Positions 8,638-24,965 of a stretch of DNA of 24,965 nt are shown one piece after another. The first letter of the stretch is position 1. The number at the start of each line of letters is the position of its first letter. Below the pieces are notes generated by a model. The model was given only the letters and a program-made list of their open reading frames with translations. It was not told the DNA's origin and did no database searches. Position numbers and translations under genes: made by a program. This DNA is from a virus, in IMG/VR virus record IMGVR_UViG_3300009419_000087, positions 1 to 24,965 of that record. One strand, written 5' to 3'.

Positions 8638-10686
8638 ATGGAAACAAATCGTGTAGGTATTAATACCGAAATTACAGATCAAAATTTATTAAATAAGACT
8701 GTACTACCACAAAATATTAGTGTTGTGATTGATCGTGCATTTTCTGGCCCGTCTAACACTCTTTACCTAGCTCGTGACTTTAAAATTGCTACAGCTTTGT
8801 ATGGAGAACGCTCACCTATTATACAACTTGCTAAAGATGTTTTAGCCGGTAGCGGTGAAAACGCAACAATCGCGTTATATCGTATAGGTGGTGGTGCTGG
8901 AATTCTAAAGAATATTTTTGGTGAATACAGTGAAATTTCTACAACTGCAGAAGTTATTGGCGCAGGTCAAGACTTAGCAGTATATGTAGGTCCTCGTCCA
9001 AATGATGCTAGCAAATCTTGTGTTATTGTTACTAAACTAAGTACAGGTAAGATTGTATTCAGTAATGTACCTGGAAGTCAAATTAACACCAGAGACGTTA
9101 TTGTTGAAGGCTTTGATGAAAACTTTACACCTTACCGTGTAGGTACAGTAACAAGCCCAGTAGTTCTGTCAGAAGTTTCTGAGAATTTACTACATAGCAT
9201 TACTGAAGTGTTTACTGTAACTAACAGTTCTACTACTTCGTTCACATTAGAAACTCCTGTTGCTACTGCTACTGCTAACTTAGTTGTAAGTAAAACAGTT
9301 GGTCCAATTACTACTTTACTAACCGTTACTCCAGTAGTAAATGGTGGGGATACTACTGGTTTTACAGTAAGTTCACCTCTAGCAGTAGATGATGTAGTAA
9401 GCTGGACTTATACTAAGCCACTAACTCCTCAAGAATTAAGTGAAAGTGATGTAGTATTTGAAGCAGGTAAAAACTCGCTAAGTGCAGACTTAAATACTCT
9501 TTACGAATTGTATGACAGTGCTTTTGAAGACTTAGAGAATGTTCGTGCATCAACAGTTACTGTTCGTGACTTGTTTAACTGCAGAAACATTGCTGCTGGT
9601 GATGATGACACAGCAGACCGCCTAACTTACTTAAAACGTACTGAAGGTGATGAAGGTTTTGTTTATGAGTGGTCGGATGTTAAATTCCTTTACTCTCCGG
9701 CAATTCCTGGTCCAGCTACTACAGATCCGCTGTTAGCACAGATTGATGACAATGGTCGTCCAATCATAGAAGAAGCATATAACGAAGTTGACTTTGCTCA
9801 CCGTTTAGCTACTTGGGCTTATACAAACTCAACCACTTCTGATTTTATCCATGCAACAATTGGAGCAGTTCCTCCTAAATCAACAAGTACTCTTGCAGTA
9901 AAACGTTGGTTAGGTAGTCTACCTACAAAAGATATCTACGGGACAATCGTAGAAAACGGTAGTGGATTGAAAGGTAACCGCTTTATGGCTGGTACTACAG
10001 AAAGAGTTGCTGGTTTCTATGCAACAGATTCAGGTTATCCAGACGGTACTATATTGACTGATAGTTTTGGTTCAGTTGTAGATATTGGTAAGTATTTATC
10101 AATTGCTACTTTACCTTGCTACTTGGCAAGTGATTTAATTAGTGGTAGAACTGCTCCTCTAAATCCACCAAGAAGTTTTGCCGGATCGTACGCAGGTTTA
10201 ATTACCCAAGTAACTCCTGGTGATAGTACAACTAACAAAGTGTTTAACCAAGTTGTACCTTTGTTCTCAGTAAAAGATAGCGTAGCCAATACTTTAAGTA
10301 GTTTAGGTTATGTAGTTCTAACTGAAAAACAAAAAGGTGTTACCGTTTATTCTGGTGACTTAGCAACTAGTGATGCATCAGATTTTGATTATATCTCTAC
10401 TGCTCTAGCTATCTCTTATGTACTTAAGAGCTTAGAAGCAGTTATTGACCCATATTTAGGACGTGGACTTGACTTACCTCTTGCTGCCGCTCTAAATAAC
10501 TCAGTTGATACTGCACTTAAATCAGCAGCAGGATTAGGAATAATCAACGGATACGACTTTGTTATCAGCAGAGTAGGTGCTAACAACTTAGCTATCAATT
10601 TAAAAATTACACCAAAAGAAGAATTACGTGCAGTCTCGGTAACACTTGCATTGACACCTGATACTACTTTTAATTTAGAAGGCTAA
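8638..10686 (+). CDS. Contractile tail sheath protein
   Basis: ATG start with AAAGGAA upstream. At 682 residues it fits tail sheath proteins. The C-terminal 200 residues carry the family hallmarks: a Leu/Ala-rich stretch (KYLSIATLPCYLASDLI), a Tyr-Ala-Gly segment (GSYAGLITQVTPGDS), the helix around LAISYVLKSLEAVIDPYLGR, and the final strands (NLAINLKITPKEELRAV) that join neighbouring subunits. The N-terminal part resembles the variable outer domains. Residues about 182-258 form a Ser/Thr/Val-rich beta segment that looks inserted, probably an extra domain on the outside of the sheath. The sheath contracts to drive the tube through the cell envelope. The tube gene follows seven bases later. Frequent CGT arginine codons fit high expression. 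Confidence 0.87.
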   Translation: METNRVGINTEITDQNLLNKTVLPQNISVVIDRAFSGPSNTLYLARDFKIATALYGERSPIIQLAKDVLAGSGENATIALYRIGGGAGILKNIFGEYSEISTTAEVIGAGQDLAVYVGPRPNDASKSCVIVTKLSTGKIVFSNVPGSQINTRDVIVEGFDENFTPYRVGTVTSPVVLSEVSENLLHSITEVFTVTNSSTTSFTLETPVATATANLVVSKTVGPITTLLTVTPVVNGGDTTGFTVSSPLAVDDVVSWTYTKPLTPQELSESDVVFEAGKNSLSADLNTLYELYDSAFEDLENVRASTVTVRDLFNCRNIAAGDDDTADRLTYLKRTEGDEGFVYEWSDVKFLYSPAIPGPATTDPLLAQIDDNGRPIIEEAYNEVDFAHRLATWAYTNSTTSDFIHATIGAVPPKSTSTLAVKRWLGSLPTKDIYGTIVENGSGLKGNRFMAGTTERVAGFYATDSGYPDGTILTDSFGSVVDIGKYLSIATLPCYLASDLISGRTAPLNPPRSFAGSYAGLITQVTPGDSTTNKVFNQVVPLFSVKDSVANTLSSLGYVVLTEKQKGVTVYSGDLATSDASDFDYISTALAISYVLKSLEAVIDPYLGRGLDLPLAAALNNSVDTALKSAAGLGIINGYDFVISRVGANNLAINLKITPKEELRAVSVTLALTPDTTFNLEG

Positions 10687-13817: not shown

Positions 13818-16800
13818 ATGAGTACAGAAGATAACAGTGCAATTCCTGAGTTTCTAATTGGCTATGGTGCTTATAAAGTCCTAGACTCCCATAAAAATAG
13901 TAGAGAGTTATTCAGTAAACTTCCTGGTACTCAGACATTTCAAAAACAATTACAAAGAAGTGCAGGGTTTACTGCGTATGCTAAAGCCAATCAAAGTATT
14001 GGCATGTCAGCTATTTCGCAAGTAATGGCTTTAGAAGAAGCCTCTCCGCTCCACGTATTAAGAACTTTCCAAATCTCTAACTTACTCCAACCTTTTACTA
14101 AGATTACAGAGTTTGATTCTGAAGTCCACATAAGCGGACAATCTATAAGAGGACAGCAAGCTTTCTATGAAGCCTTATTAATTCAAAATGAAAAAGAAGC
14201 AAACCGACGTGTTAAAAGATTACTACAAGCTGAAGATTTAAAAAGAGGAATGATCTTTAAAAATAACAAGCTTTATGGTATAAATAGTAATGGGTCTATT
14301 AACACGGCAGACGTTATTTTAGAAGACGCTCGTCTAGTACTAGCAAGTCAAAAAAATGGTCAGATAAATTCTCAAAATCATGTTCTGCGTAAATATGCAG
14401 AAGGTTTAAAAGGGAAGATAGATTTTAGACAAGCTGTAAATGATCCAGTAATGGTTATAGGATCTACTAAAAATAATTTAGGAAAACAATTAAATGCCTA
14501 CTTAAAATTAGGTATGGAGATGGGTTACAAAACTTTAGATAACCCTATAGCCGGTTTTGAAGAATTAGTAACAGGGTTAGGTGGAGAAGTAACAGGGTTA
14601 ACTCAGACTAAATTTTGGCAAAAAGCTAAAGCTATTTCTAACATACAACTAGGGACTGGCGGTGTCTACGACATAGGACACGCAGATAGTTTAAAAAGAG
14701 TTGCTAAGAATATGGCAATAAAGGCTGGCGGAGCTTACCTAGGTTATCAATTGTTAGACTCAGGTGCTCGCTTAATAGCAGGTCCAGATTCAGATTTTAA
14801 ACAAGGATTACTCACCGGCTTTGGTGGTATTTATGCCGATGCTAGAATAGGCTTTGCCAAGGCATTCTCTGACAGATTTCAAAATTATCGTAATAATCAG
14901 GAAGCTGCTGCTCCTGGATCTACCGATCTACTTACACTTTTAGGCATGCCATTAGGAGGTGCTTTAATAGGTGCACAGTCTGCTTATTTTGGAAGAATAG
15001 GTAGGATGGCTACAAAAGGAATGGAAGCCTCTGCAGCTAAATATTCTGTAGAAAATTCTTCACCATTACTTGCTAAAACTCTTGGCATTTATAAACCGAT
15101 GACAATGATGAAACGTAATGCAGTGATTGGTGGTGCTTTAGGTGCAGCAAGCATACTACCATTTTTGCCGGGAGCTTTAATAGGTGCTTCTTCTAAAGAA
15201 TTAGAAGAAAGATACTCAGGTAAAAAAGAACAAGAAGTAAGAGCGAACCGTTGGTGGTTAATGGGTGGTAATTCCGTACATGGGGATCATGTAAAGTATT
15301 CTCAACAAAATTGGTTTGCAAGAGCTAAATCTGAAGCTAAAACAAAAGCTATCTATGGAGATGCTGAAACTAAAAAATCTTTAAATCCTTTATTACATCC
15401 TATTGCCTACTTACGAGATCCTTACAAATTTGAAAAGATGACTGATGCTTACATGCCTGCTCCAGTTTGGGGAATGGAAGTAGGTGTCGGTTCTTTTTTA
15501 GGTAAGTTTTATGAAAGAACAGTTGGTCAGTTAATTAAGCCTGATATATTAAATCCACGAATTACACTAGAACAAGAAACTAAAAAGAAAGAAGTAGGCC
15601 AGTTAAAAAATACTGATAGTGTTGTTGGTGTTGCTATTGACAATGAAATTACTCAATTTCGTAATAAAAACTTAAAAACAGAGTTAGTGGATATTGAACA
15701 AGTTAAGCAACAAGTTCTTGAGAAGAATACAAGAATGTTTAACTCAAATGAATTTGATGGTAGCTTAAAAAGTATTGTAGAACAAGTACAAGGTTTAAAA
15801 AATACTGAGAGTACTAAAGTAGTAGATTTAAAAGATTATGATATAAATGTAGAAGATGCTGATACTATAAAACTAACAAAAAAAGGAGCTGGAGGTTTAT
15901 TTGGTAAAGATAGCAAACCTATAAGTATACGTCTGGCTGGTATAGATGCGCCAGAAAGTGCTGATCATAAAGCTGGAGATGCACCTAAATATGTCTTCCA
16001 TCAAGACCAGGAGTTTAATAAAGAATCTACTGCTATGTTAAAAGATATGTTATCTAAACAAAAAACATTACAATTAGTAGTTAATACAAAAGACTCTACT
16101 TATGGCCGCCAACTAGGTGTTATAGTAGGTGATAATAATACTAATATAAACTTAGATCTAGTCAAGAAAGGAGCTGTTACAGCCTTACCTTGGGATGGAG
16201 GTTCTGACATTATGTCTAAGGGCTCTTTGAACCAAGCACAGAAACAGGCTATGAAGAATAACGAAGGTCTTTGGCAAGGTAAGCGTTACAAAGCTGAGCA
16301 TTTATTTGGTGAGTTAACAGAAGGTCCTCTTACTCACAATACATTAACTAACATGAAAAAGTTAGCTGAAGATCCAACTCTTGCTGCTCTTGCTACTTAT
16401 TTAAAGAATTTGGAAGGAAGTAAAGGAGAGCTTTCACAGGAAGAAATAAAAACTGTGCAAGGTTTAGCGAGTTCTTATCTTGCAAATAAAGAGAAGAATC
16501 GTAATATCAGAGACTATCAAAATACTTTAGGACTTTCTGTTGGTAAGTCAAATGATATGTCAGATCCTACTGTAAATGCAGCTTTAAGTTTTAATTCTAA
16601 AGTAAGTGTAAATTCTAACTTTGGCGGAGACAACTCCTTAGTGCAATCTAATACCTCACCAGTTTATACACCTCAGTTACAAAATGCACAACTAGCTTAT
16701 CAATCTTTATCAGATTTTGTAGGTATTAAAGGTTGGGCTTTTGCAATGGGAGTAGATGCATTATCTGAAGGTGCTTCTTTTGTAAAAGAACAGCAGTTAG

Positions 16801-18464
16801 CAAAGTCAGGAGAAGCTAGTAATTTTGCAAGAGGTTTTAAAGATTTAAATCTAGGTGACGTAGGTGGTATTGGTGAATTTCAAAGAAAGATAATGGGTAC
16901 TTCAAAAGGTGCCTTGCCTGATACTACTAATATGATGACTAACCAAATGCCTTCTTGGTTACCTAAGAATGGTAGTAGATACTATATAGATTTTAGTAAA
17001 GGTAATCCTTATGCGGCTGTTGAAAATGGAGAAGAACGTTTACCGGGTGCTGGATATGCAGCTTTAAATCCTGAAGTAAGAAATTTAAAACCAGAAGAAT
17101 ATCCTCTTATACATCAATATAAAATATTATCTGATGTAGCAAAAGGATCAGCCGAACAATATAGGATGAGAAAGAAATTATTAGATGAATATAAAGCAGG
17201 CAATCTTAGTAAAAGAGAAGAAGATATTTTAGTAGAAACTTTAGATAAAGAAGTAGCTAGAGAAAATAAAAGGATATTTAAAGATGATTTAGAAAAAAGA
17301 AAAGAAGCTGCCGGTCCTGTAGGTTTTTTACAAAATAACTTATGGAACAAGTTATCTGCTATTTCTAATTCTAACCCGTTAGAGATGTTAACTCCTTGGA
17401 GACCTTTTAGTAAATTCATGCATCAAAGAACTGCTATAGAAGATTATGAAGCAACTCAACTAGGTGGCTCAGATACTGCTATCTGGACTAACCCTTATTC
17501 ACACTTTATAAAACCTGCGTTAAATAAGACTAGATTAATGTTTGACGATACTTTTAAACCTAAAGAAACACAAGAAAAAGAAAATGTAAATGAGTATTTT
17601 GATAAATTAGGTTTTTTAAAAGGTATGCTAAATGGTAATAACAGAGACGCACAAAATACTATTGTACACAGTAGTATATCAGGTTTAAATACTAAAGAGA
17701 AAGTGTTAAGATTTAGAGCAGCTTTACAAGATGATCAGAAAATATATTTTAATAACTTTTCAAAAGAAACTGATAAATCTAAAAGAGAAAGAATTTTAGA
17801 AATGCTTCCTACAGATGTAGCAAGAGGGTATGAACAAATTTGGAAAAATTTGGATATTGCACTAGACGCTAAAAGTTCTGGAGGATCTGTACAAGGCGCG
17901 CTAAAAACTAACTTTTTAAAAACTACTAATGAACTAAAAACCAGGCTAGCAAAAGATTTTAAACTAACAAAAGAGCAATCTTTTCAAATTGATAAAGATA
18001 TAGAAAAGAACAGGGATATGTATGCTAATCAAGGATATTCTAAGAAAGAAAGAAGAGACCTAGCAGAAGCTGATTTAGTAAGAACACGTATAGCTCAAAA
18101 AGAAGCTTATGCTTATGTTAATGAAGCTACTGGCACTCCAAAAGGATTCTTTGCAGGTTGGGACCCTCGTCTTACAATTAAAGATATTAAAATTAAAACA
18201 TTGGCTGCTGGTAAAGAAGATTTAAGACGCTTTGGTTTTTGGCAAGGTGATGAAGATCGAATGAATAGTATTAAAGCATTAGATAAAGATGAACAAGTTA
18301 TTACACAATTAGATGCAATAAAAGAAGAGATTAGGCACGAAAGAAACACTAAAGAATTAATTGCTAACGCATTATTTAAAAAAGGTTTCAATGCTGGTCA
18401 AATAAAAATAAATGATTCAGAATTTAACTCTATAGTAATTAGACAAAATTCTCAAGGAGATTAA
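13818..18464 (+). CDS. Giant tail or inner-virion protein with staphylococcal-nuclease-like domain
   Basis: ATG start, weak GTGAG ribosome site. At 1548 residues it sits in the slot of the tape measure, just after the chaperones. Glycine-rich hydrophobic segments lie at about 299-322, 371-393 and 434-459 and could insert in a membrane. A tryptophan-rich stretch follows (NRWWLMGGNSVHGDHVKY, W479 onward), then a passage with LRDPYKFEKMTDAYMPAPVW. I recall this combination from large virion proteins of other big myophages. Residues about 670-822 form a thermonuclease-like domain with D680, D682, R705, D710, E713 and R764 in place (see separate entry). The C-terminal third is charged, helical and coiled-coil-like. 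The protein may be the tape measure, or an ejected protein that enters the cell with the DNA. Virion placement is inferred from position. Confidence 0.78.
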   Translation: MSTEDNSAIPEFLIGYGAYKVLDSHKNSRELFSKLPGTQTFQKQLQRSAGFTAYAKANQSIGMSAISQVMALEEASPLHVLRTFQISNLLQPFTKITEFDSEVHISGQSIRGQQAFYEALLIQNEKEANRRVKRLLQAEDLKRGMIFKNNKLYGINSNGSINTADVILEDARLVLASQKNGQINSQNHVLRKYAEGLKGKIDFRQAVNDPVMVIGSTKNNLGKQLNAYLKLGMEMGYKTLDNPIAGFEELVTGLGGEVTGLTQTKFWQKAKAISNIQLGTGGVYDIGHADSLKRVAKNMAIKAGGAYLGYQLLDSGARLIAGPDSDFKQGLLTGFGGIYADARIGFAKAFSDRFQNYRNNQEAAAPGSTDLLTLLGMPLGGALIGAQSAYFGRIGRMATKGMEASAAKYSVENSSPLLAKTLGIYKPMTMMKRNAVIGGALGAASILPFLPGALIGASSKELEERYSGKKEQEVRANRWWLMGGNSVHGDHVKYSQQNWFARAKSEAKTKAIYGDAETKKSLNPLLHPIAYLRDPYKFEKMTDAYMPAPVWGMEVGVGSFLGKFYERTVGQLIKPDILNPRITLEQETKKKEVGQLKNTDSVVGVAIDNEITQFRNKNLKTELVDIEQVKQQVLEKNTRMFNSNEFDGSLKSIVEQVQGLKNTESTKVVDLKDYDINVEDADTIKLTKKGAGGLFGKDSKPISIRLAGIDAPESADHKAGDAPKYVFHQDQEFNKESTAMLKDMLSKQKTLQLVVNTKDSTYGRQLGVIVGDNNTNINLDLVKKGAVTALPWDGGSDIMSKGSLNQAQKQAMKNNEGLWQGKRYKAEHLFGELTEGPLTHNTLTNMKKLAEDPTLAALATYLKNLEGSKGELSQEEIKTVQGLASSYLANKEKNRNIRDYQNTLGLSVGKSNDMSDPTVNAALSFNSKVSVNSNFGGDNSLVQSNTSPVYTPQLQNAQLAYQSLSDFVGIKGWAFAMGVDALSEGASFVKEQQLAKSGEASNFARGFKDLNLGDVGGIGEFQRKIMGTSKGALPDTTNMMTNQMPSWLPKNGSRYYIDFSKGNPYAAVENGEERLPGAGYAALNPEVRNLKPEEYPLIHQYKILSDVAKGSAEQYRMRKKLLDEYKAGNLSKREEDILVETLDKEVARENKRIFKDDLEKRKEAAGPVGFLQNNLWNKLSAISNSNPLEMLTPWRPFSKFMHQRTAIEDYEATQLGGSDTAIWTNPYSHFIKPALNKTRLMFDDTFKPKETQEKENVNEYFDKLGFLKGMLNGNNRDAQNTIVHSSISGLNTKEKVLRFRAALQDDQKIYFNNFSKETDKSKRERILEMLPTDVARGYEQIWKNLDIALDAKSSGGSVQGALKTNFLKTTNELKTRLAKDFKLTKEQSFQIDKDIEKNRDMYANQGYSKKERRDLAEADLVRTRIAQKEAYAYVNEATGTPKGFFAGWDPRLTIKDIKIKTLAAGKEDLRRFGFWQGDEDRMNSIKALDKDEQVITQLDAIKEEIRHERNTKELIANALFKKGFNAGQIKINDSEFNSIVIRQNSQGD
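15825..16283 (+). other. Thermonuclease (SNase-like) domain within the giant protein
   Basis: Residues about 670-822 match the staphylococcal nuclease fold in order. The VEDADTIKL strand carries D680 and D682 (SNase D19 and D21). RLAGIDAPES carries R705, D710 and E713 (SNase R35, D40, E43), with exactly the same spacing as in SNase. YGRQLG carries R764 (SNase R87). It ends with LDLVKKGAV and NEGLWQGKRY, the usual closing segment of this family. These are the calcium ligands, the general base and the two phosphate-binding arginines, so an active calcium-dependent nuclease is plausible. Activity itself is not shown by sequence. Confidence 0.85.
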
Positions 18465-18470
18465 TATAAT

Positions 18471-21400
18471 ATGGCTAAATTTAGCACACAAGCTAAATTT
18501 GTTCTTGGTGCTGCAGCAACAGGTGCATATTTAGGTGACATAACAGATGATCCTATTGGTGGTTTACTAGGTGCTACAGTGCTGGCTAGCACTGCAACAT
18601 TTATGAAACTTACTACTTCAGATATTAAAGGCGCAGGTAGTTTACCTACATCTTTTGATCTCGATCAGAATGTTATTAATGCTAGTAAAAATCAGGTGTA
18701 TACAGATAGAGAGTTAATGAGTATTAACAGGGTTAAAGAATTTATTAATACTCAAGACAGAAATATTGCTAGACTACCTAAGATTGAAAAAAAATTAGCT
18801 GATAATAATCAACAAATAGCATCTGGTAAAATTAGTAAAAGGCGTGCAGCTAAGTTACAATTAAAAAATAAGAGTCTAACAAGGTTTTTAGAGAAAAATA
18901 GCCCACAAGCTTTAGAGCAAGTGGCTATTGACTTGGCAGCAAAATTAAAAACATTTAATCATAATATAACACCTACGTACGAAGGTCTTAAGACTTATTT
19001 ACAAGGTATTACAGATCCTGCAGATGCTACAAGAGTAATGAGTTTGATTAGAGGTGCTAAACCTTACTCTGCTATAGACGCAGAAGATAGCTTAAGAACT
19101 AGTAGATCATTTGTAAGACAAATAAATACAACTAAAGGAAATGCTTTAGATAGTTTATCAAAGCATTTCCAAGATAAATTTAATAACCCTGCGGATGTTG
19201 CTTTAGAAAAAGCTAGATTAATTTTAGATAGAAACTCTTCTGAGACTATTGCTATCAAAGGTGGAACAGTATTATACACAGACAAATTTAGCGGTAAAGC
19301 AGAAGCTATACCAATTACTTCTGTTACAGAAAAAGGCGTATTTTATCATACTCCAAAACCAGGTACTAACTTTGCTATAAATGCAGTTAACCCATACGGT
19401 ACTGCATATGCAAATCAAACTCCTGTAAGAATTTTAGGAACATCTGAAACAAGAGTACCTACTTTTGCGGATGTTACTCAAAGAATGCATCCAGAATTAC
19501 TTGCTCTGCAAGTCAGTCAAGGTAAGAGTATCACTGAAGAATTAGATGTAGTAAGATCACAACTAAGACACGGACTTGACGAAGCAAGCATTGAACTAAA
19601 TATACCTGCACAATTAAATGACGATAATATCAGTCAAAGGTTTAGGGCAGCAGGGCAAGCAACCAATTACCAACACACATTGAATTATGATGTAAATGGT
19701 AAATTAAATACCGAAAGACCTCTCCGTAAATTAAAGATGATAAGTGAAGCTGGAGGTACAAGACCTGAAGGTAAAACTGTACTTGCAGAGATCATGGAAG
19801 GTTACTTGCAGAATAACCCTGAGATGGCAGACAATCTTTTAAATAATATTTCTTTAAATAATACAACTACGCTGTCTGGTATAGACTTTCAAGCAATAGC
19901 TCCTCTTAGCATGAATCAACGTGGTGCGACTGCTGTAGGTGTAAGGGATATGCTAGCTAGCAACAGATCACAAGATTTTAATTTGTTATCTGAAATATAT
20001 ACAGGGTTTGAATCTCAGTTTGCTAGTAGTAATGTGTTTAATAGATTAGATGTACGCGATAAAACTACATACAATAAATTATTAACTGACATACTAGGTA
20101 CATCTAGAGTATTGGCAGATGGAGCGGGATTTTTTAATAGTGCTTTAGAGACTACAGAAAAATTCTCAGCAGAAGTATCTGATAGATTAGTACTAGGTAG
20201 ACAACAAAATGGTTCGTTGTTAATTAAAGATGAACGCTTAGCAAGTCTACTAGAAACTTATAAAAATTCAGGAAGAACTACTGGTTTAAATGAAGATTTT
20301 ATTCGTGATTTTAATAGAGCAGAAGCTACTAGAAGTTATGTACAAGCCTTTAAAGAAAGAAATCCTAATACAAGAAAATTTAAAAAAGCAGATTCTTTTG
20401 AAGATCTTTTAAATATTTATAAAAATTCTCGTGGCACGACTAGAATGGCTATCAATAATAATGTATCTGGATTTGAAATAAAAGCTGGTCAAGTGTTAGG
20501 TGTCGATGCTGTAGGGAACGAAATTAAACTACATAAGCAGTATACCCGTGCTGAATTGACAGGTTTGCTATTAGATGAGAATGGTAATTTGCTTATACAT
20601 AGTAGAGCAACTTTTGATCCTAAAGAAGAAAGAATAGCTAAATTATTCTCTGAAGCTGCTAAATCTAACTTACATGGTATGACACAGAATCAATATGGAA
20701 AAGCTGCAACTTTAGCTGTTATGTTAAATGAAGGTTTAATAAATCCACTTACACAAAGTATTCCAGAAATGTCTGGTAGGATAATGGACGCTTATCAAGG
20801 AGTAATAAAGAGTGTAGCTAATGGTAAAGAATTAACACCTATTCAGCAAAAAATTCAAACAGCTATAAGTTCAGATTTTATATTAGCTGCAGAAGATACA
20901 AATACTTCTGCAATAACTAATGTATTAAGAGCTAAAACAAAAGAAGATATATCTGAAGTATTTTCTCCAAAAGGCAGTATGCAATATACAGATAAAACTT
21001 TAACAAGAATGGATTTAGGTGCTAAAAGTACATTAAGAGAAGCTAAAAATGCTGCTCTGGCAACATTAATGCAAAGTAATTTTAAATCAGCAACAGATTT
21101 AAATTTAACAATTGCTAGTGATATTTTTACAAATTTTGATAAAGTTGCAGCAGGAGTAGGTAATAAAGAAGAACAAGAAGCAGTTAAATCTATGCTAGAT
21201 CGTTTTAACTTCAATCTGGGAGACACTGAAACTACTCCAGAAGAAATTCGTTCAAAACTCTCAACAATATTGCAACAAAGCACTCTAGCTTCAAACTTAA
21301 CAGGTAAAAATGCACAAGAATATCAAACTAACTTATATAATATGATGCGCGGCTTAACAGATACTAACCTTGAAAATTATGCATCAGGTATGATAAAAAG

Positions 21401-23549
21401 TGTTGGTGCTGTTAACAAAGGACAAGCCGTATTAGGAGTAGGCAATAGAGCTAGAATGTCATGGACAGCTTATAATCAATTGTTAAAATCAGGATTTACT
21501 CCACAAGATTTATCTTCTTTTGGTAAGTCAGATTTTAAAACTTTATTAGAACTAGAAGGAATATTTTCTGAAAGATTTGGACATAGTAAAAGAATTAAAG
21601 ACTTAACTATTAATAGTCAACTAGGAAATTTAGGAAGTGAAGTAGAACGTATAATAACTCAATCTGCACCTGAAGCCCGTGTATCTAAATTAAAAACGAT
21701 GGGTATTCATGTAGATGAAAAAGCAGCTTTTATAAGCTATAAGCTAAAAAATCCATTTAAAGAGTTGGAACATTTAAACTTCAATACTATGACAGCAAGC
21801 CATTCTGGAAGTCATGACGATGGTTTAAAAGTAATGATGAAGGATTTAGAAAAAGCTAGATTAAATGTCTTTAGTTTAGATAGACAGTTAGCAGATGCTT
21901 CAGAAGCTGACAGAGGTAATATAAGATCAGAGTACGAAGCTGCTGCTAAGAAATATATGAAATTAGCTGATAACTTACTAAAAGGTGACAACTCTTTAGT
22001 TAAGAAAGCTGCATCTTTAGTGACTGAGCAAAGTAACATTAGTCTTGCAATGGCAGTAGGTGGAGAAGCTTCAGACTATATTGCTAGCCAAAAAACTAGA
22101 CCTAATGGTGTATTTATTTCAGAAGAAGGCTTAGCGTTAAGAACAGAAAGAATGGGATTAAAAGCTAGTGATCTAGTAGAAACAAAAATAGCAGGATATG
22201 ACAATCTTTATAAAATTCAATATAAAGTTGGTGACGAGCTAATTGATTTAAAAAGCTTATTTACTCGTGAACCTGCACAAGGACCTTTAGCTACAACTTA
22301 TGAAGATTTAATTTTAGATAGAAGTCTTGAAAAAACTGGAAACGGTGCTCATGCTTTTGTAACAGAGAATCACGAAGGATTCTCTAAAGGTAAGTATCTA
22401 GACTTTGACCAAGATACTTTACAAGAGTTGTTTGGAAAACTAGGAAGTAAGGCAGAACAAGATGTATTAAATATTAAGTTTGAAAAAATACAAAGCTACT
22501 TAGATGATATAGTACCACTAGCTAAATTTATGAAAGTAAAAGGAGCTAATAAGACTATATTTACTCCTGCAGATTTTGAAGATGTTGCTGATATTACTTC
22601 GTTTAAAAATACTGCAGGTATTCAAGGTAGAGAACGTAAATCTTTAGCTGGTGTAGCTACACGTTTGGCTACAAATTTGTCTGAAGCTTTAACAATGGAA
22701 TTTGATGCAGTGTCTCCAGAAAAAGCTGTAAGAGGAAGATTCCTTGGTCACGTCTTAGTAGAAAACTTACTTAAGTCTGCTCACCTAAGTACAAAAGAGT
22801 TTGCTAAACAAGCAGAAGCGGATATTGAATCTTTAAGTAGAAATAGAAGTGCGTATTTAGAAGGTAGATTAACTGCTAAACAATATCGTACAGAAATAGA
22901 ACCTGTTTATCGTAGATCTTTAAACTTAGATAATCCTGAGTTAATGGCGGAGGGTAAGGCTAAGTTAGATACTATTCTAGATGATATTTTAACTGCAGAA
23001 ATTAACCAAGCTAAGTTAGTTTCAGATAAAGCGAGAACACCTTTGGATATTGGTAACTCTGCTATAAGAGGGACAACAGTTGATAAATCTATGGAAGTAG
23101 TAGCTAATTTTACGCCGATGACTTCTGAAATAGATTTGCAAGGTTCTCGTTCTTATGGTAGAATGGCAAGAGAAATAAAAGTTAATATTGCAAGCACTAT
23201 TAAAAACAATAAAGGCATCCTAGGCGTAGGTGCTGCTGCACTTGCTTTAGGGTCTATTATGACTAGAGATGGTGCAGAAGTCTCTGAAGAGAGAGAAAGA
23301 ATGATACGCGGTAATGGTGGTAAGATGATTACTGGCCCTACTAACGTACCTATGGGTATAAATACTAATACAACAGCAAGTAGCTATGTAACTCCTAAAG
23401 TTCAAAATACAGGTCAAAAATCTGTGGAAGTTAATGGTGATTTTGCTGAATATGCAGAGTATGGTGATGCTAGTAATTATATGGATCAAACAGCGGCTCT
23501 TTCTAGTGCTATTTTTGGAGATAATCTAAGAACGGCTCGCCTAGAATAA
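18471..23549 (+). CDS. Giant virion protein with RNA polymerase-like R-x-P / DFDxD motif (candidate)
   Basis: ATG start with AAGGAG at 18454-18459, seven bases after the previous stop. At 1692 residues this is the largest protein in the window. Residues 8-46 are Gly/Ala-rich and hydrophobic, and residues 1582-1597 (GILGVGAAALALGSIM) form a second membrane-like segment, so both ends could contact membrane or tail lumen. A coiled coil runs from about 1124 to 1180. R1266-E-P lies 45 residues before D1311-F-D-Q-D1315, the layout seen around the catalytic loop of the beta-prime subunit (R-x-P, then DFDGD about 35 residues on). Further on, FKNTAGIQGRERKSLAGVAT is followed by long helices. It may be a virion RNA polymerase-like protein, a tape measure, or an inner-virion protein. 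The structural role is likely; the polymerase idea is tentative. Confidence 0.72.
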   Translation: MAKFSTQAKFVLGAAATGAYLGDITDDPIGGLLGATVLASTATFMKLTTSDIKGAGSLPTSFDLDQNVINASKNQVYTDRELMSINRVKEFINTQDRNIARLPKIEKKLADNNQQIASGKISKRRAAKLQLKNKSLTRFLEKNSPQALEQVAIDLAAKLKTFNHNITPTYEGLKTYLQGITDPADATRVMSLIRGAKPYSAIDAEDSLRTSRSFVRQINTTKGNALDSLSKHFQDKFNNPADVALEKARLILDRNSSETIAIKGGTVLYTDKFSGKAEAIPITSVTEKGVFYHTPKPGTNFAINAVNPYGTAYANQTPVRILGTSETRVPTFADVTQRMHPELLALQVSQGKSITEELDVVRSQLRHGLDEASIELNIPAQLNDDNISQRFRAAGQATNYQHTLNYDVNGKLNTERPLRKLKMISEAGGTRPEGKTVLAEIMEGYLQNNPEMADNLLNNISLNNTTTLSGIDFQAIAPLSMNQRGATAVGVRDMLASNRSQDFNLLSEIYTGFESQFASSNVFNRLDVRDKTTYNKLLTDILGTSRVLADGAGFFNSALETTEKFSAEVSDRLVLGRQQNGSLLIKDERLASLLETYKNSGRTTGLNEDFIRDFNRAEATRSYVQAFKERNPNTRKFKKADSFEDLLNIYKNSRGTTRMAINNNVSGFEIKAGQVLGVDAVGNEIKLHKQYTRAELTGLLLDENGNLLIHSRATFDPKEERIAKLFSEAAKSNLHGMTQNQYGKAATLAVMLNEGLINPLTQSIPEMSGRIMDAYQGVIKSVANGKELTPIQQKIQTAISSDFILAAEDTNTSAITNVLRAKTKEDISEVFSPKGSMQYTDKTLTRMDLGAKSTLREAKNAALATLMQSNFKSATDLNLTIASDIFTNFDKVAAGVGNKEEQEAVKSMLDRFNFNLGDTETTPEEIRSKLSTILQQSTLASNLTGKNAQEYQTNLYNMMRGLTDTNLENYASGMIKSVGAVNKGQAVLGVGNRARMSWTAYNQLLKSGFTPQDLSSFGKSDFKTLLELEGIFSERFGHSKRIKDLTINSQLGNLGSEVERIITQSAPEARVSKLKTMGIHVDEKAAFISYKLKNPFKELEHLNFNTMTASHSGSHDDGLKVMMKDLEKARLNVFSLDRQLADASEADRGNIRSEYEAAAKKYMKLADNLLKGDNSLVKKAASLVTEQSNISLAMAVGGEASDYIASQKTRPNGVFISEEGLALRTERMGLKASDLVETKIAGYDNLYKIQYKVGDELIDLKSLFTREPAQGPLATTYEDLILDRSLEKTGNGAHAFVTENHEGFSKGKYLDFDQDTLQELFGKLGSKAEQDVLNIKFEKIQSYLDDIVPLAKFMKVKGANKTIFTPADFEDVADITSFKNTAGIQGRERKSLAGVATRLATNLSEALTMEFDAVSPEKAVRGRFLGHVLVENLLKSAHLSTKEFAKQAEADIESLSRNRSAYLEGRLTAKQYRTEIEPVYRRSLNLDNPELMAEGKAKLDTILDDILTAEINQAKLVSDKARTPLDIGNSAIRGTTVDKSMEVVANFTPMTSEIDLQGSRSYGRMAREIKVNIASTIKNNKGILGVGAAALALGSIMTRDGAEVSEERERMIRGNGGKMITGPTNVPMGINTNTTASSYVTPKVQNTGQKSVEVNGDFAEYAEYGDASNYMDQTAALSSAIFGDNLRTARLE
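22260..22430 (+). other. Candidate double-psi beta-barrel catalytic region
   Basis: FTREPAQGP (R1266, P1268) and KYLDFDQDTLQELF (D1311, D1313, D1315) lie 45 residues apart. In cellular RNA polymerases the magnesium-binding loop is DFDGD, preceded by a conserved R-x-P. In the virion polymerase of crAss-like phage phi14:2, as I recall, the loop is DFDID. Here Gly is replaced by Gln. The three aspartates are present, but I cannot place the two conserved barrel lysines with confidence. The motif does not fit a canonical EF-hand, which needs Gly at position 6 and Glu at 12. Low to moderate confidence. Confidence 0.3.
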
Positions 23550-23587: not shown

Positions 23588-24965
23588 ATGATTAAAGAAA
23601 TTTTTCAAATAAATGATATACTACTAGAAGTAAATCCTTCAGATGTTAAAGTTTTAGATGACAACTATGTAGTAGAAGAAAGCTATTTAAGATCTAATGC
23701 AGTCTATGCAAATAGATCTAAATATGCTGCTACTAAGATAGCGCTAACAATTCCGGTAGAAATATCGGATACTTTTTTAGCATCTTTAGATAAAGTAAAT
23801 TATCTAACCTTGCCTAATGCTTATAAAATAATTTGTCAAGTAAGCAACTACCCTTTTTGCTTTATCAAGTCTAAAAGGGTAGAGACTTATATTAATCCTC
23901 CAAACAAATCAGCTACAGATTTTATGATATTTGCTATTTCAGAAGTAAATATTACAAGTCGTGCAGAAGTAAGTAATATATTGTTTTTAGAATTAATACT
24001 TGTATTTTTTAATCACACACCTTTTATTAAAGATTTTACTTTCTTAAAACATCCTAATATAAAGCTAGATGGTTCTTCAGAAATTACAGAACAAGAAGCT
24101 AAAGGACTATTTAGAGGAATTACAAGAGATACTCCAGAAGCAACTAAAGAGGCTATTATAGACGCTCTTAATGAACAAACTTCTTTTGCTACTCTTGAAA
24201 GCAGTGAAGCATGGCAGAATTATTTTGAAAATATATTTAGAGATATTGCTAACAATGTCAAAAAAGAAAATTTTTCAGAAGCTATAAAAGAACTGACAGG
24301 TATTTTTAAATCGTTACGTGTTGCTATAGCAACACCGATTGTTCACGTCTTTAATTCAGAAACGATAAATGAAGAAACAGAAAATAGATTAGTAGATGAT
24401 AATACTAGATATGTCTATAGTATGAATACTTCAACTAGAGGAACAGAAGCTATAAAAGCACTATATGATTCTGTAGAAGGCCAAAACTTTACCGTAGAAA
24501 AACTTACAGAAAATCCAAGATCTCCTACAAGTAATACCGTAGACCCGTCAACTCTGTCCAATAATGAAAGAATTAAGCAAGAAACTCTAAACCCCACTGA
24601 TACGCCAGTAATTGTTGAACCAGTAAATAATGTATCTAAATTACTTATGCCGTCAGAAATGGAAGCTATAATGAAAAAAGCGGAAGACGATGCTAATACT
24701 ACTTTTTTAGAAAATGTTAAAATATACGCTATTAACTGGACGGATATAGATTTAGCTACTGTTGGAGCATCTGTACAAAGTTTTAAAATTTCTAAAAGAA
24801 ATAAATTAGCTTTAAATCATATAGTGAGCTATAAACATCCTATTGTACAACACTTAGGGAAAGCACCTACTGAGATAACAATACAGTACTCCGCAAATAG
24901 TGGTAATCAATACTTAACGGATTTAAGTCCTACAGCGTTTATTAAAGATAAGTTTAATATTATAG
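23588..24965 (+). CDS. Probable baseplate or hub protein, 5' part (runs off the end)
   Basis: ATG 23588 with AAAGG at 23571-23575, 38 bases after the previous stop. The frame stays open for 459 codons to the window edge, so the C-terminus is missing. The N-terminal 180 residues are a compact alpha/beta region (IFQINDILLEVNPSDVKVLD; FLASLDKVNYLTLPNAYKII). Then comes an acidic helical stretch and a Ser/Thr/Pro/Asn-rich linker (about residues 300-345). From about residue 397 a segment reads FKISKRNKLALNHIVSYKHP, then IVQHLGKAPTEITIQYSANS. The QHLG...I.I pattern resembles phage tail and hub proteins that begin with 'P..QhlG.....i.i.G'. Placement after the giant tail genes supports a baseplate hub or tail-tip role. 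Confidence 0.7.
   Translation, partial: MIKEIFQINDILLEVNPSDVKVLDDNYVVEESYLRSNAVYANRSKYAATKIALTIPVEISDTFLASLDKVNYLTLPNAYKIICQVSNYPFCFIKSKRVETYINPPNKSATDFMIFAISEVNITSRAEVSNILFLELILVFFNHTPFIKDFTFLKHPNIKLDGSSEITEQEAKGLFRGITRDTPEATKEAIIDALNEQTSFATLESSEAWQNYFENIFRDIANNVKKENFSEAIKELTGIFKSLRVAIATPIVHVFNSETINEETENRLVDDNTRYVYSMNTSTRGTEAIKALYDSVEGQNFTVEKLTENPRSPTSNTVDPSTLSNNERIKQETLNPTDTPVIVEPVNNVSKLLMPSEMEAIMKKAEDDANTTFLENVKIYAINWTDIDLATVGASVQSFKISKRNKLALNHIVSYKHPIVQHLGKAPTEITIQYSANSGNQYLTDLSPTAFIKDKFNII

Follow-up and report, generated by a model that had tools for sequence, protein, structure and literature searches.

Single-chain RNA polymerases with two barrels, virion RNA polymerases and one fusion of such an enzyme to a tape-measure protein are already known. 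That fusion, gp96 of phage P23-45, is the closest precedent for the protein analysed here, and it has been proposed to be carried with the tail, delivered to the host and used for transcription of the first genes (PMC10770324). The crAss-like phage phi14:2 likewise has a virion polymerase with two barrels in a single chain, gp66 (PDB 6VR4), which is structurally closer to QDE-1 (PMC10770324). Another single-chain two-barrel DNA-dependent RNA polymerase of phage origin is YonO of SPbeta, whose aspartate triad is needed for activity (PMC5467207). Among jumbo phages, two-barrel enzymes of the phiKZ and AR9 type come in a virion and a non-virion set, and a 2021 survey of 224 jumbo phages found RNA polymerases only in the phiKZ-like group and two others (PMC7824862). 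Finally, in 0305phi8-36 the gene orf146 lies directly before the hub gene orf147 and was assigned as the tape measure mainly by its length, and the QDE-1-like RNA polymerase of this phage, orf99, is encoded outside the structural region (PMC2147016).

The stretch analysed here, hereafter the window, is a virus record of 24,965 bases with no known host. Its genes stand in the order portal protein, major head protein, tail sheath, several small genes, a protein that we call A, a protein that we call B, and the start of the baseplate hub. The genes that matter for the argument are the following.

8638 to 10686, plus strand: tail sheath protein, giving the contractile-tail context (phrog_16991, E 2.4e-69; 47% identity to the ME3 tail sheath).
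13818 to 18464, plus strand: A protein, 1548 aa, a conserved virion protein of the lineage with an inserted nuclease domain (47% identity to ME3_35).
15927 to 16277, plus strand: SNase-type nuclease domain within the A protein (PF00565, E 1.5e-16).
18471 to 23549, plus strand: B protein, 1692 aa, predicted single-chain two-barrel RNA polymerase in the tape-measure position (homologues ME3_36 and L012:14587-19797; profile match E 9.5e-7).
23588 to 24964, plus strand: baseplate hub protein, truncated where the window stops (phrog_8809, E 2.6e-49; gene order as for ME3_37, annotated baseplate hub).

The same gene order, with a putative tail chaperonin between the sheath and the A protein, is found in Acinetobacter phage vB_AbaM_ME3, which its authors relate to Bacillus phage 0305phi8-36 (PMC5000817). 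The succession of chaperonins, B-position gene and hub holds in the window, in ME3, in Bacillus phage KLEB27-3, where the same-position protein carries the annotation structural protein, and in phage-plasmids. Since the gene order matches that of ME3 and that around orf146 of 0305phi8-36, the B protein lies at the tape-measure position; the A protein just upstream is another candidate for the tape measure. The SNase domain, which is in the A protein in the window, is apparently in the hub protein in ME3 (L002:16780-23769), whose A protein has none, and a nuclease domain thus appears to move between virion proteins. In the contig of the other close relative, the A gene (L012:10341-14568) is read as two overlapping ORFs, which reflects either a real frameshift or a sequencing error.

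A reading made from the letters of the window alone had pointed to a pair of motifs in the B protein, R-E-P and DFDQD, as those of an RNA polymerase active site. The ORF, the coordinates, both motifs and the distance between them, 45 residues from R1266 to D1311, were all confirmed.

21897 to 22445, plus strand: predicted beta-prime-like region with double-psi beta-barrel A (DPBB-A), residues about 1143-1325 (hhalign score 67.8; PDB beta-prime profile matches).
22266 to 22274, plus strand: R1266-E-P1268, the R-x-P motif of the predicted active site (in a 30-row alignment, R in 28/30 rows and P in 30/30).
22401 to 22415, plus strand: D1311-F-D1313-Q-D1315, predicted metal-binding aspartate triad (three D in 30/30 rows).

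DFDQD is the sole D-x-D-x-D in the 1692 residues. By itself such a motif is weak evidence, because it was present in 26% of 20,000 shuffled versions of the protein; an R-x-P placed 35-48 residues upstream of a D-x-D-x-D was present in 0.55% of them. The pair is nevertheless far beyond chance, since the proline of R-x-P and the three aspartates are the only invariant columns of the 30-row alignment, which spans the diversity of the family. The sequence-only reading would have been refuted by homologues in which the aspartates were not conserved; they are strictly kept even where almost everything else differs.

Relatives of the B protein were difficult to reach from its own sequence. Single-protein scans of IMG/VR with the B protein or with its KLEB27-3 relative returned no relatives, and a HMMER iteration from the B protein stopped at three sequences, so that profile-profile comparison was needed. 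We therefore collected the family through a conserved block of the A protein, which gave 133 related viral stretches (80 loci fetched) and eight bacterial contigs. This block, M-P-[DS]-W-[LM]-P ... G-E-x-R-L-P-G, at 16956-17060 of the window and in all loci from L021 to L108, is a very good marker of the lineage. The motif pair was present in most ORFs downstream of the A protein among the fetched loci, and a family HMM added three loci (L105, L097 and L107) whose motif the first pattern had missed. Altogether, R-x-P followed by D-x-D-x-D is found in about 50 proteins that occupy this position in related phages and phage-plasmids. In KLEB27-3 and in phage-plasmids of Cytobacillus, Bacillus and Paenibacillus, the protein at this position is 2300-2430 aa long, each with R-Y-P-[S/T] and then D-x-DGD some 40 residues on. 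These Firmicute-type relatives of about 2300 aa also have an exonuclease-like domain near the N-terminus (RNase_H_2, E 3e-4; L007:9863-16726, residues about 260-335), which the shorter window type lacks. In Moorella phage MTATph1 (L004:25513-32869), an exonuclease-like ORF of 1309 aa is separated by a transposase gene from an ORF of 313 aa, whose match to the RNA polymerase profile is confined to the C-terminal end of that profile; the catalytic core appears to have been lost.

The search yielded just two full-length relatives of the window type. One is L012:14587-19797, on a 242,588-base IMG/VR contig, with 41% identity to the B protein; the other is ME3_36, with about 25-28%. They carry the pair as REPSQG...DFDQD and REPAQG...DHDQD, respectively. 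Across the three proteins of the window type 258 of the 1692 positions are invariant, among them R1266, P1268, D1311, D1313, D1315 and two lysines, K724 and K731, considered below. The window type differs from most relatives in having Q in place of G at the fourth position of the triad motif. This is unremarkable, because the residue varies across the family (G in 18 of the 30 rows, Q, K and R in 3 each, A in 2 and T in 1). In phi14:2 gp66 the motif reads DFDID, the glycine being replaced there as well. Downstream of the triad, the segment VENLLKSAHLS aligns with a K-H motif of the family, the K being A or S in the window type; we infer that this segment is the bridge helix. Several proteins at the same position in sister lineages have no D-x-D-x-D, including a group of about 15 related phages (L062-L083) in which the ORF after the A protein is roughly 1600 aa long. 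The position therefore does not always need a polymerase, and this suggests, by analogy with P23-45 relatives that lack the fusion (PMC10770324), that the enzyme can be absent from it.

We then asked whether the family can be recognised as an RNA polymerase. Searches of Pfam, PHROGs and PDB with the B protein as a single sequence returned nothing relevant and recognised no RNA polymerase; a weak match to UPF0184, in a predicted helical region, was discarded. When the three window-type sequences were compared as a profile with 27 relatives, hhalign aligned motif on motif over about 150 columns (score 67.8, E 9.5e-7), the maximum among 100 column-shuffled decoys being 25.0. The window type is thus significantly homologous, at the profile-profile level, to the family that contains L021, the member chosen for structure prediction. 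Compared with all PDB sequences, the family profile matched almost solely beta-prime chains of RNA polymerases, aligned at the motif, and the match to bacterial beta-prime extended upstream into a conserved segment before it. The top match was the non-virion polymerase of phiKZ (E 0.005, or 0.002 when the window type was added). Taken one by one, the E-values are modest; what counts is the uniformity of the matches. In addition, Pfam RNA_pol_Rpb1_2 matched 3/30 members (best E 4e-4), and the PHROG "RNA polymerase beta subunit" matched one (4e-4).

The AlphaFold2 model of L021, built from a 21-row alignment, reached a pLDDT of 74.4 and a pTM of 0.72. All 50 Foldseek matches listed for it against PDB were largest subunits of RNA polymerases (best E 1.3e-7); phi14:2 gp66 was absent among the matches listed, which excludes nothing. 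A second look at residues 1-457 of the model found Rpb2 (Z 16.5 over 361 residues, 3.8 A). Because of the matches to both the largest subunit and Rpb2, the model holds a beta-like and a beta-prime-like half in one chain. Against predicted viral structures, the L021 model matched the 802-residue second piece of an ME3 protein (E 8.6e-12). As ME3_36 is 1603 aa long, this piece is taken as its C-terminal half, an identification by length only, the accession being untraced. With that reservation, the match connects the window type with the fold by way of an independent prediction that others had made. For the window protein itself the model was weak (mean pLDDT 50.5, pTM 0.35), and against PDB structures it gave mostly coiled-coil matches; matches of its residues 549-744 to RNA polymerase I were not relied on, as the rmsd was near 16 A. 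Between about residues 1116 and 1295 local confidence was mostly 50-89, and R-x-P is preceded by a strand and followed by two strands, a helix and then D-x-D-x-D, an order shared with L021. This local agreement between models is consistent with the fold and is not a proof of it. The structure check thus holds for L021, which is predicted to fold as a single-chain two-barrel polymerase, and for the ME3 fragment that matches it, the window model remaining of low confidence.

A two-barrel polymerase also needs its other barrel, and the sequence-only reading had left the lysines of that barrel unlocated. Alignment with the family now places candidates for them.

20463 to 20705, plus strand: predicted beta-like barrel (DPBB-B), residues about 665-745 (L101-group profile match; strands in the window model).
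20640 to 20642, plus strand: K724, the first of two basic residues that are candidates for a catalytic role in DPBB-B (K in 26/30 rows; invariant in the window type).
20661 to 20663, plus strand: K731, the second of these candidates in DPBB-B (K in 24/30 rows and R in the other 6; unchanged among the three window-type sequences).

A separate hhalign match to the L101 group covers the segment of the two lysines, with a score of 35.2 against a maximum of 28.5 for 100 decoys. The aligned segments, KLFSEAAKS in the window, KFFSEENKF in L085 and KFMIEGEKT in L021, each have two basic residues 7 apart, and resemble the K-x7-K pair in the beta barrel of cellular enzymes such as E. coli beta. K724 and K731 thus align as the basic pair of the family, an assignment that rests on alignment without a confident window model. 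Another segment, VNKGQAVLGVGN (about residues 981-992), was considered for the barrel lysines and dropped: it does not align with the basic pair of the family, and the K of ME3 is a Q in L012.

Related genomes often encode a further polymerase away from the tail genes. The Pfam family PF05183 matched 13 of 33 related records, 10 of them above the curated cut-off, and none of 14 control genomes. In ME3 and on the L012 contig no second polymerase was detected by PF05183, Pfam or PDB sequences; it was found by D-x-D-G-D. In both genomes a pair of neighbouring ORFs encodes a further enzyme, and the second ORF of the pair carries D-[VS]-DGD. An ME3 protein of 798 aa, A0A172Q0S6, equal in length to the first ORF, matches the L021 model (E 1.2e-7) and supports the assignment. 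A group I intron (RF00028, 51 bits) lies on the minus strand at L122:4230-4621, about 223,229-223,620 of the ME3 genome, separating the R-N-P with which the first ORF ends from the D-V-D-G-D encoded in the second, with a homing-endonuclease-like ORF nearby. This intron apparently splits the second polymerase gene of ME3 within the region coding for the active site. On the L012 contig the corresponding gene (L124:9197-12685, minus strand) consists of two adjacent ORFs (726 aa and 432 aa), the break lying elsewhere than in ME3; it may therefore be a two-subunit enzyme. A pair of virion and non-virion polymerases would parallel the situation in P23-45 (PMC10770324).

Taken together, we propose, with a probability of roughly 0.8, that the B protein is a single-chain two-barrel DNA-dependent RNA polymerase that is part of the tail or travels with it, and is packaged, injected and used to transcribe the first phage genes. 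The conservation of the motifs, the homology to a family with a predicted RNA polymerase fold, the position of the gene and the second polymerase of relatives are observed; that the protein is catalytically active, is present in the virion, is injected and transcribes early genes is inferred. The polymerase assignment of the sequence-only reading is in this sense supported, by the conserved aspartates, the L021 fold and the ME3 match. The motifs of the B protein make up the complete catalytic signature of an RNA polymerase related to the cellular enzymes. In the predicted enzyme, D1311, D1313 and D1315 would bind the catalytic metals in one of the barrels, K724 and K731 would be contributed by the other, and R1266 would sit in the usual R-x-P segment. 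Built into the tail of a contractile-tailed jumbo-type phage, or carried with it, the packaged protein would enter the host along with the DNA and transcribe the first genes; the task might then pass either to a second phage polymerase, of the kind that related genomes encode at another site, or to the enzyme of the host. Since dozens of related phages have this enzyme in the same location, it is probable that they, too, inject a phage-encoded RNA polymerase with their DNA.

Several observations count against this proposal: the weak window model, the lack of any RNA polymerase match from the single sequence, Q for G in the triad motif, S-A-H for K-H downstream, and the triad-less proteins of sister lineages. 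One alternative is a true two-barrel descendant that no longer polymerises, the fold being kept in what is now only a tape-measure or ejection protein, as the assigned position of the gene (PMC2147016), the poor predicted structure, the sister proteins without a triad and the replaced glycine would allow. We consider this unlikely, however. A lost function would release precisely the catalytic residues, and the three aspartates, Arg-x-Pro and both lysines are kept at 26% identity, when only 258 of 1692 positions are invariant; moreover, residues other than glycine are common at the fourth triad position in the family. That the motif pair is a mere coincidence in an ordinary tape-measure protein is harder still to maintain. 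The frequency of D-x-D-x-D in shuffled sequences (26%) and the failure of the B protein alone to match any RNA polymerase in sequence libraries would fit, but the only invariant columns in 30 rows are those of the pair, the profile match has an E of 9.5e-7, and both the RNA polymerase fold of L021 and the matching ME3 fragment would remain unexplained. Conservation and fold have already largely refuted this possibility, which we regard as very improbable.

The enzyme could also be active and made late with the structural genes, yet neither packaged nor injected. There is no virion proteomics for this phage, and P23-45 and 0305phi8-36 have non-virion polymerases too (PMC10770324, PMC2147016). 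Nevertheless, the B gene lies inside the run of tail genes in a conserved order, its KLEB27-3 relative is annotated as a structural protein, and many relatives have a separate polymerase away from the tail cluster, which together make an unpackaged enzyme improbable. Extending the preferred reading, a packaged and injected polymerase, to the whole lineage is a larger step, which we find reasonably likely though less secure than the proposal for the B protein itself. In that case 0305phi8-36-like phages, among them ME3 and dozens of environmental contigs, would share an unrecognised virion polymerase, replacing the tape measure or fused with it, that transcribes the first genes independently of the host and hands over to a second polymerase. 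As part of the same joint reading, and with the sequence of 0305phi8-36 orf146 not included, the supposed tape-measure gene of the lineage would then be a polymerase gene.

If the B protein is an active virion polymerase, the conclusion of the 2021 survey (PMC7824862) is wrong for a widespread lineage, and members of this lineage could begin infection independently of the host enzyme, as in the presence of rifampicin. The link between tape measure and polymerase, so far that of one group of Thermus phages, would become a recurring arrangement, now in contractile tails. The family also offers a large and diverse set of sequences (D-x-D-[G,Q,K,R,A,T]-D) in which to study what a two-barrel active site really requires. 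A 2026 review (PMC13282480), searched for 0305, ME3 and tape measure, does not mention the lineage. What is new is the contractile-tailed jumbo-type lineage, the C-terminal catalytic core and the wide distribution, with the proviso that the supplementary RNA polymerase tables of PMC10770324 could include some members. The suggestion that a tail cluster with a sheath is a new setting for such an enzyme thus stands for the most part, as regards the contractile-tailed lineage; a virion polymerase fused to a tape measure was already known from P23-45 (PMC10770324).

The comparison with known systems can be summarised as follows. The phiKZ and AR9 enzymes are multisubunit, with split beta and beta-prime and a virion set located in the head, whereas the B protein is one chain from a tail cluster. 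YonO, of about 100 kDa, differs in that it transcribes prophage late genes and is not a tail-cluster protein. With 0305phi8-36 (PMC2147016) the window shares the order of chaperonins, orf146 and hub orf147, and the structural proteins place both in the same lineage; orf146 was assigned there as a tape measure and not as an RNA polymerase. Relatives carry a predicted polymerase at the tail position together with a separate one of the PF05183 type. The resemblance is closest to P23-45 gp96: in both systems a single-chain polymerase with D-x-D-x-D, predicted here to have the two barrels of gp96, is encoded at the place of the tape-measure gene, and a second, non-virion polymerase is encoded in P23-45 and in relatives of the window. 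However, P23-45 belongs to the Thermus phages and its tail, of non-contractile type, is extremely long; its polymerase makes up the N-terminal part of a protein of 5,002 aa and has DFDGD at 779, whereas the B protein, from a contractile-tailed phage, has its predicted core with DFDQD in the C-terminal part of 1692 aa.
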